Positions 26,501-64,000 of a DNA stretch of 64,000 bases are shown one piece after another. Where the stretch lies: positions 446,001-510,000 of the forward strand of contig OZ020265.1 of assembly GCA_963971285.1 (NCBI GenBank), given 5' to 3'. Under the pieces are notes generated by a model. The model was not told the origin of the DNA, made no database searches, and saw nothing but the letters and a program-made list of their open reading frames with translations. The translations under genes and the position numbers were made by a program. Source of the DNA: Astropecten irregularis (Eukaryota; Echinodermata; Asteroidea; Paxillosida; Astropectinidae). The stretch's first letter is position 1. Each line of letters begins with the position of its first letter.

Positions 26501-29500
26501 TTTGATAACCATATCAACTGTAATTAGTCCTCAATCACATAATTCATAAATTACCAGTAACGGTTACATAATACCAAGCATAATGTTAGAAAAAGTGACC
26601 TTTGCTCTGTCCGAAAAGTTTAACCCGTAAATCAACATAAGCGATAAATATTGAGTACATGCATCTTACTGATTAAGACTGCAATAAAATCACAGACGCT
26701 CAACATTATTTTTATGTCAATATTAACATTCCACCAGTATTTGATTTGATTAGTCTGTGATGGCCTAGACTTAATGATAGCGATGCCGACTGGTTGCAAA
26801 ATAGCTGACGGCACATTTTTGGAATGAAGTACATGTAGTTTATCCTGCCCTTGAAATGTCTCAGTTTCTGTGAATAAATATAGTAAAACTTCCTATTATT
26901 TTCAGAAACACACATGCACACATACTTCACAGAAGAGTATACATGATGTTAACTGCAAATCTTATCCGTTTTAGTAATACTTCCACCATGCATACAGCTT
27001 CAAATCGAATATTACCTTTAAACATAAATATTTTTGACAATACAAGTAATAAACTGCTGCAAACTGCTCATCAGCCAAAATGACCTGAAATAATACATAA
27101 CGCTTGGAGTTAGGAGGGCATGGTGCGTTTCGATCCTAGATGGATCTTTCTCAAAGGCTGCTCAGAGTTAGGAGGGCCTGACGTTTCGATCCTAGCAGGA
27201 TCTTTCTCAAATGCTGCTCAGAGTTAGGAGGGCCTGACGTTTCGATCCTAGCAGGATCTTTCTCAAAGGCTAAATGACGAGCGACAAGAACATGCAAGTG
27301 AAAGAGCATATACATTTTTTTTGCTTAGAGTTTGAAGAACCCGACGTTTCGATCAGAACATGATCTTTTTCAAAGCCGTTAGCCTTTGAGCAAGATCCTG
27401 CCAGCTAATGAGCAGTTCCATCAGTTTACTGTATTTTTTCATAGAAACTGATGGGCATTTCAAGAGAGGATAATTTAATAAATACAAATACAAACATTCT
27501 TTCCACGGAAAAACAATTTTTTTTTTCAAGTCGATTGTGACATTTACTAATTTTCACAGACCTGAGGCCGATATCACGAACCACTAAGATTTATCTTAAG
27601 TGTGAATTCATCTTAATTGCTAAGCAAAATGTGATGTCACAATACAAATCACTATGGTGATACTGAACAACCCATCTTAAGATTAATCTTAGTGCTTGTG
27701 AAATCCAGCACCAGACCCCTTTAATAATAACAGACAGATGACCCAGACGGTTCATAATTTATAAGCATTGGCATAATTGATTATGACATGCACTTGGGCG
27801 TCATTGATCTTTGCACGGAAATAGAGAAAGTAGGCCCATTAATTATCTCGGTGCGGTATTGACAATAGACCACATGCTGAAGGCATCTTTAGTACATGTA
27901 CTTGCATTGCATGCATCTTCAATACAATGAGATAATCTGCACAATGACAAACAAATACGCAGCCCACGTACAAGGCCATGTGCGAATAAACTGCAATTAT
28001 CTATAAATTTATGTTAAGTACCAATATATCAAGGAAGACTTTTTATGCTGAAGCAAATTTTGTGCTTAAAGGTAGTAGTATCATACTTTCGTAAGAAACC
28101 AAAACAGAAATGTTCACAGATTTACCTACAGGGTATGAAGATGGTGACTGGTAGAAACATGCCGTTAAACCTTTTCCGCCTGAAATTTATCCAGAAATTA
28201 GTAAAACAACGACCGTAAATCTTGTTGATCTTTTAAAACGATCAAAAATAAAAGAGAAAAGACTTAAGAAATACTGTGGCTGTTTTTCATTGTTTTCTCT
28301 AAAAGTGGGGACCGTGTCGGACTGAAATTTTCACAGATGACTGTTATTGTATCTGTCTTGATATTTTTGCCCATAAATCTGTATTTCTTCGACAAAAACC
28401 ACAGTATGATATTACCTTTAAGCAACTCTATAAAATTGGCCCCAGGTATCATCAGCTTGTACAGCTATTCAAAGACAACATGACAAATGTTATCTTGCAT
28501 TTTTACTCTCATGTTTCAACAGACAGAAATATAAGTACCACTTGAAAGCAACTTTACACATCATTTCCTTAGGGCAACTTGAATCTTAATTTGAAAATTT
28601 GAAATAAACCACGAAGTGAACTGACAGAAATGCAATTTAAGTCATTGAACTTGAACAAAGAAAACTGACTGTAGCGGGATTCGAACCAGCGACCCCGGAA
28701 TACCGTACCGGACAACCGGTACTCTATATCAACTTAGCTTATTGACGATGTCCCAAATTGTCAATCATCTTTGTTCGTTTGGCAGTCAGAAGCCATGAAA
28801 CCACTCACATACCGCTATAAACCAATGATCATTTAATTTCAATTAAATTGTTTCGATTCTCAACCAATTTTATCGTGTCAGGTCAGAAGTAATTAATGAC
28901 GTGTTCTAGGTTTACAATGACGTCACATTCTGTCATCGATTATTTCAATGATCATAATTTTATTATATTTATTGTTTTCTTTTGACAGTTCAGCACGGGT
29001 TCGTCGATGCCAGCAATCCGGCCGATGTTGCACCAGCTGCCGTCACTACACCACGTAAGGCATTTGACGATCTCTTAAGAGATCAAGCCGTTGAATCTTT
29101 CTATAAATCATAATATTAATGGTCCCAGCTTGTTTTAGAGTGTCCCTGTCACATCTGATAAGATTTTGTAAGTTAAAACACATTCTTCAAACTCAATAAT
29201 GATTATGTTACAGCAAATATTACCTAAACAAAACGTTAGAAGTAAATTTCCATGGTCATCAAATAACCACAAAGGAAACTGACTGAATCTTTAAGTCATT
29301 GAAAGGTGAACAAAGAAACATTTACTATTTTGCTGATAATATTGTCAGTACGCCATTTCTCAAATTTATCTGAAATTCGACTTCCCAGTTTCGACGAAAT
29401 TTGTCCAAATCATGAACTTTTCACTCAGAACCGACAACATGGAACTGCGACTTTGAGCAAGACACGTGTACCTACACGCAGGCGCAGGATGACGATTTTG

Positions 29501-64000: not shown

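Follow-up and report, generated by a model that had tools for sequence, protein, structure and literature searches.

Tandem MAM domains combined with LDLa modules are found in MALRD1/Diet1, in endotubin, and in a skeletal MAM/LDLr protein of Acropora with its Nematostella homologue. An excerpt of one report gives nine MAM and nine LDLa modules for Diet1 (PMC8804323), and in the excerpted account of the coral protein a lengthy MAM repeat is accompanied by LDLr, two gene models belonging to one gene (PMC4890752). Copying of several domains at a time is known from chicken nebulin, where the excerpted report describes a super-repeat of seven domains over four exons (PMC1553488). Within the echinoderms, the excerpted part of a skeletal proteome study includes a meprin-like MAM protein, PMI_018059 (PMC5460417).

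Here we describe a MAM array that begins within a stretch of 64,000 nucleotides (the window; C30:446001-510000), together with a co-linear paralogue on the same contig. The first array, A1, shares tandem MAMs and LDLa modules with the MALRD1-type proteins, to which it is likened by domain content, but has about 48 MAMs and a six-domain super-repeat. As far as the nebulin excerpt goes, A1 resembles nebulin in multi-domain copying, in a similarity peak at a fixed domain distance, here greater than one, and in an exon structure that repeats with the block. It differs from nebulin in being made of MAM domains, in its unit of six, in inter-domain introns that are nearly all phase 1, and in having a co-linear paralogous gene (A2) that gives the order of events. 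PMI_018059, compared through its excerpted description only, is like A1 in its MAM domain and echinoderm host. Block-wise domain duplication and long MAM/LDLa proteins are already known, and A1 is a large and unusually legible new case; among the matches listed in the open PMC literature, judged by titles and the starts of abstracts, we found no account of a six-MAM super-repeat or of a co-linear gene pair of this kind. We favour, with a probability of roughly 0.93, the reading that A1 is one giant gene of about 48 MAMs in which a six-domain unit was copied in tandem at least twice within domains 1–18, the whole gene being duplicated thereafter. From the two genes one can read unusually clearly how a giant and probably adhesive protein came together. 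Gene annotation readily breaks up arrays of this type; the coral MAM/LDLr gene, as excerpted, offers a precedent (PMC4890752).

Extent and exon structure of the array

A six-frame Pfam search of the genome (475.7 Mb in 168 contigs) yielded exon-sized MAM matches from C30:475446 (window 29446) to C30:597098, far past the window end, and a second dense cluster on the same strand at C30:10676459-10770254, 10.2 Mb from the first. The genome-wide match list is a lower bound, the best 150 candidates having been scored. Domains were modelled with a MAM profile built iteratively from the exons of the two arrays themselves, using an intron-aware profile-to-DNA alignment that required GT-AG, tracked phase and penalised stops. 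This approach resulted in 48 modelled MAM domains over ~122 kb for A1, the final ten or so being divergent, and in 43 for A2 once split matches were merged, with five more further downstream. The modelled domains contain 0 stop codons, which weighs little since the aligner penalises stops. PF00629 scores for the spliced domains 1, 5 and 6 and the single-exon part of domain 13 were 116.5–138.8 bits against a curated cut-off of 26.4; this whole-domain scoring covers 4 of the 48 domains, whole or nearly so, and exon-wise matches run along the array. The solved structures closest by sequence to domain 13 are MDGA1 and enteropeptidase. Together with short linkers, the A1 MAM domains amount to ~7,860 residues.

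Domains 1–15 fall in the window. Introns inside a domain (inner introns) are denoted by profile column and phase, with a for 94.0, b for 86.1 and c for 132.0; position refers to the place of a domain within its six-domain block. The features, in window coordinates, are:

23462..23525, + strand: candidate first coding exon, hydrophobic and signal-peptide-like (21 residues), phase-1 end at GTAAGT
29429..43900, + strand: Block I, MAM 1-6, 18 modelled exons, inner introns c,a,c,c,c,b
29429..31695, + strand: MAM 1, position 1
32114..35713, + strand: MAM 2, position 2, intron 94.0
36514..37832, + strand: MAM 3, position 3, QQSTDEFNW insert
38366..40190, + strand: MAM 4, position 4, NADP linker at start
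41063..42482, + strand: MAM 5, position 5
42605..43900, + strand: MAM 6, position 6, intron 86.1
44302..57522, + strand: Block II, MAM 7-12, 17 modelled exons, inner introns c,a,c,c,c,b
44302..46464, + strand: MAM 7, position 1
47058..48868, + strand: MAM 8, position 2, intron 94.0
49855..51510, + strand: MAM 9, position 3, EQSANSTDW insert
51892..53812, + strand: MAM 10, position 4, TADP linker at start, beginning 9 bases after the start in the sequence-only reading
54587..55860, + strand: MAM 11, position 5, no modelled intron before MAM 12
55861..57522, + strand: MAM 12, position 6, intron 86.1
57961..64000, + strand: Block III, first half, MAM 13-15
57961..59258, + strand: MAM 13, position 1, without the first inner intron
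59780..61442, + strand: MAM 14, position 2, intron 94.0 (aligned as 99.0)
62043..64000, + strand: MAM 15, position 3, introns 95.0 and 132.0, last exon ending 45 bases past the window
Beyond the window, to about C30:516593, + strand: Block III, rest, MAM 16-18

The sequence-only reading had described an intron order of c,a,c,c,c,b in two successive sets of six domains, followed by c,a,(a+c), and the profile alignment reproduced it. Inner introns were placed at 132.0, 94.0, 132.0, 132.0, 132.0 and 86.1 in domains 1–6, identically in domains 7–12, and at 132.0, at 99.0 and at 95.0 plus 132.0 in domains 13, 14 and 15, respectively; we took the 99.0 intron of domain 14 for 94.0 because the preceding exon is again 155 nt long. 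Across A1 domains 1–18 the inner intron sets are identical in 9 of 12 comparisons at offset 6 (p 0.0002) and in 3 of 6 at offset 12 (p 0.25), and in A2 they are identical at offset 6 in 8 of 12 (p 0.0036).

The exon-length matches listed at distance six were recovered as well, with one difference: 144/269/85 in both domain 1 and domain 7, 147/155/196, 147/155/190 and 147/155/190 in domains 2, 8 and 14, and 171/263/91 in domain 4 beside 165/266/91 in domain 10, where the first exon is modelled as 165 beside an earlier value of 174, depending on the acceptor that is used. The protein marks repeat at the same distance, although inexactly in domains 8 and 9: YTEAT is shared by domains 2, 8 and 14, with TYGT in 2 and 14 and SYGT in 8; QQSxDxxxW occurs in domains 3 and 15, with EQSANSTDW in 9; NADP and TADP linkers stand ahead of domains 4 and 10; DKTTGT is found in 5 and 11, and NExxLDDxDF in 6 and 12. 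The corresponding position-3 marks of A2 are GQQSKDNVDW, KEQSVNSTDW and NEQSVDEKDW, and two of its position-3/4 borders carry the linkers TADP and SADP.

At the junctions between domains 1–37 of A1 the models place a single phase-1 intron in 32 of 36 cases and none in the other 4, no other phase being seen. The A2 junctions comprise 31 with a phase-1 intron, 4 with none and one phase-0 call, possibly a modelling error.

Six-domain periodicity and the paralogous gene

Of 12 offsets tested among domains 1–15, just two showed raised sequence similarity, namely 6 (permutation p 0.00005, the lowest value that the test can give) and 12 (p 0.0017). For domains 1–18, excess over shuffled orders was again confined to offsets 6 (p 0.00005) and 12 (p 0.0015) of 14 tested, with mean pairwise identities of 48.5% and 45.6%, respectively, compared to 36.5–41.6% at the other twelve. 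Domains 7–24 of A2 showed raised similarity at both offsets as well (each p 0.00005). In a maximum-likelihood tree of 91 domains (48 from A1 and 43 from A2), 17 of the 18 domains in the three blocks had their nearest A1 relative at a distance of 6 or 12, in line with the expected pairing of n and n+6; the exception is domain 17, whose nearest A1 relative is domain 32 rather than 11. Had domains been added singly beside their source, with the six-fold introns and marks arising by coincidence or convergence, neighbours should be closest, but this was the case for 0 of 18 domains, and similarity is not raised at offset 1 (p 0.83). The 91-domain tree, the 36-domain tree described below and the offset permutation test refute single-domain addition, to which we assign a negligible probability.

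A tree of 36 domains, representing three blocks in each of two genes, recovered positions 1, 2, 3, 5 and 6 as clades with UFBoot values of 98–100 and rejected block I as a clade (AU p 6e-50). Position 4 was not a clade in the best tree, in which domain 4 and its partner took no resolved place, and a single position-4 clade is compatible with these data (AU p 0.246). Judged from sequence, domains 13–18, half of which lie beyond the window, are a third copy of the six-domain block. The proposal that the unit was copied at least twice therefore holds with three blocks in A1 (1–6, 7–12 and 13–18) and three in A2; the size of 13–14 kb that had been given for the unit is a matter of coordinates, as the intron similarity predicted at a distance of ~14 kb is absent. 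Using tail domains as outgroup, with their correspondence assumed, block III branches first, leaving I and II as sister groups (95/92), the two other branching orders being weakly rejected (AU p 0.040 and 0.038).

Comparison with A2 places the block copies relative to the gene duplication. For 32 of the 37 domains 1–37 of A1, the nearest of all 90 other domains is A2 domain n+6, and therefore the block copies mostly predate the gene duplication. Concatenated blocks pair I with I, II with II and III with III across the genes (UFBoot 100), and the concatenated data reject a tree that unites the three A1 blocks (AU p 6e-6). The same intron set, with columns binned by a few positions, is present in 31 of 37 partner pairs, the differing domains being 8, 13, 18, 27, 29 and 33. 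Such intron differences can be read in A1 and A2 against known homology: the A2 partner of domain 8 carries both a 94.0 and a 132.0 intron, and domain 18 lacks the 86.1 intron that is present in its A2 partner. Farther downstream, the best matches of A2_44-47 are A1_38-41, and that of A2_48 is A1_44. Both genes have kept the domain order.

Domains 1, 2, 4, 7 and 8 of A1 have their nearest relative in their own array rather than in the A2 partner, which may reflect later conversion. Domains 1/7 (58% identical) and 2/8 are closer to each other than to their A2 partners and are possible cases of such conversion. We consider it improbable, however, that gene conversion or unequal exchange between blocks, and not ancient origin, accounts for the likeness of n and n+6 in general, because with the A2 partner nearest for most domains the within-gene copies have mostly been diverging since before the gene duplication, and the introns are not homogenised between blocks.

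Other candidates for related blocks or arrays were rejected. The six extra amino-terminal domains of A2, considered as a further block, have best positions 1,2,5,4,2,3 and form no clean six. The 10-kb segment C21:6223501-6233500, considered as a third copy of the array, looks like another MAM gene; among the four domains modelled there, three have their matches dispersed over the array and the fourth is partial. Further MAM clusters in the genome lie at C30:9165877-9188635 (-), at C21:6224039-6239315 (+), from which this 10-kb segment was read, and at C21:11117698-11132386 (-) and C21:16569110-16582137 (-).

Layers, age and probable route of duplication

The history of the array has further, deeper levels besides the six-domain unit. 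In the 91-domain tree, domains 19–21 and 22–24 pair by three, and domains 25–28 and 34–37 pair by nine; 29 pairs with 38 by score. By score, domain 39 is nearest to 30, yet 30 is nearest to 37. The two co-linear genes make it possible to order these layers (three, six, nine and whole gene).

The tail may point to a basic unit of three, in which the block would consist of the related triplets (1,2,3) and (4,5,6), the tail would retain (1,5,6) and (1,2,3) triplets, and six-fold copying would be a later layer, supplementing rather than replacing our main reading. Averaged over both genes, domains 19–27 score highest with block positions 1,5,6,1,5,6,1,2,3, where 23 and 27 are near ties, and domains 31, 32, 34, 35 and 36 with positions 1,5,1,2,3. 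The 91-domain tree likewise places domains 21, 24 and 33 near position 6 (98/71 with 33), domains 27 and 36 near position 3 (94/85), and domains 19, 22, 25, 31 and 34 near position 1 (80/82), and the pairing of 19–21 with 22–24 is itself by three. On the other hand, domain 33 is tied among positions 3, 1 and 6, domains 28–30 and 37 fit no position well, and position 4 groups weakly with position 2 and not with position 1 (80/80, 36-domain tree). Offset 3 shows no excess in domains 1–18 (p 0.84), so that a two-triplet origin of the block stays hypothetical. As the pattern was also read off after the fact, we regard the triplet as possible but somewhat short of an even chance.

The introns had been expected to retain residual similarity at the ~14 kb block offset, but no signal beyond dispersed repeats was present. 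Among the 45 modelled introns of domains 1–18, 7 of 37 block-homologous pairs gave a match, compared to 117 of 990 among all pairs, and 6 of these 7 were inverted, which tandem copying would not yield. Residual intron similarity is expected only of recent copying and is not required for an old duplication. Synonymous sites are saturated both for n/n+6 pairs and between the genes, with median pS values of 0.68–0.75 in seven sets, and consequently provide no date. The block duplication is old and visible only in exons and intron positions.

On the favoured reading, tandem copying of a six-domain unit of ~18 exons, at least twice, would have produced the first 18 domains. The likeliest route, in our view, is unequal crossing-over within the phase-1 introns that separate the domains, because recombination between two such introns preserves the reading frame and each copy would have stayed in frame. 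The whole gene, including its blocks, would later have been duplicated with the domain order kept in both copies.

Smaller duplications were observed in A2. At C30:10726211-10726963, five near-identical 156-bp tandem copies comprise the 3' part of one MAM exon and its donor site, seemingly a recent exon-scale duplication in a gene with old block duplications. A further apparent tandem duplication, involving a MAM middle exon, lies at C30:10743062-10743489.

Predicted protein and surrounding sequence

In each gene a hydrophobic exon that starts with ATG ends in phase 1 at GTAAGT (C30:469462 and C30:10671000), and a second hydrophobic exon carries a basic tail (C30:601076 and C30:10771937). These candidate exons were chosen for mutual likeness, by hydrophobicity alone, from 8 (A1) and 7 (A2) hydrophobic ATG starts and from 5 (A1) and 3 (A2) hydrophobic segments. 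The candidate A1 start exon, at 23462..23525, was picked from the 8 ATG starts in window 22000-29446, and splicing it to the domain-1 exon at 29429 would preserve the frame. LDLa modules (PF00057, cut-off 24.1 bits) were detected at C30:541837 (52.9 bits) and C30:598105 (30.0 bits) in A1 and at C30:10770892 (36.6 bits) in A2, the last module being present in both genes; LDLa-like linkers occur in A1 from domain 27 onward only. Each array probably corresponds to one transcript, which the LDLa modules would share. Based on these sequence features, the A1 product is probably a single-pass MAM/LDLa membrane protein with a candidate signal peptide and transmembrane exon. It may have an adhesive or matrix function; analogy with MALRD1 (PMC8804323) and with the coral skeletal MAM/LDLr protein (PMC4890752) makes it plausible that the protein acts at an epithelial surface, in matrix or in skeleton.

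The six positions might further represent six functionally distinct MAM types forming a repeating ruler whose order is held by selection. If so, the same six binding faces would return at constant spacing over part of the ~8,000-residue chain, and their order would have outlasted two rounds of block copying, duplication of the whole gene and a long time of divergence. We consider this possible but unlikely.

A 56-bp minisatellite with the palindromic core GATCCTAGCAGGATC recurs in the array introns. It was located at:

Window 27071-27388, 29732-30465, 42838-43136, 43995-44247: 56-bp minisatellite
Window 51015-51441, 56196-56508, 61502-61996, 63028-63091: 56-bp minisatellite

Matches to its core with <=2 mismatches number 3 in the first 29 kb, 42 in 29–113 kb and 31 in 113–174 kb of the A1 region, and 9 in 110 kb of A2. 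Seven copies of a ~98-bp tandem repeat (window 38566-39218) occupy part of the first inner intron of MAM 4. Upstream of the array, an open reading frame at window 9285-9710 ends in CSNGCGSVPGLDIGGCEHCCTTDLCNSAG followed by a hydrophobic tail and resembles the final exon of a Ly6/three-finger GPI protein, and a TTG/TTGATG low-complexity array of about 0.6 kb occupies window 16710-17355.

The mitochondrial COX1 of the assembly reads STNHKDIG under code 9 and STKHKDMG under code 5, which points to an echinoderm. Elsewhere in the assembly, C131:32162-33484 contains a COX1 of 552 codons that is open under the standard code, beside a COX2/cytochrome-c-like open reading frame; it looks bacterial, and the contig may stem from a symbiont or contaminant. 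A partial copy of mitochondrial COX1, open under the mitochondrial code, lies on a large contig at C25:9951047-9952018 and is possibly a nuclear insertion.
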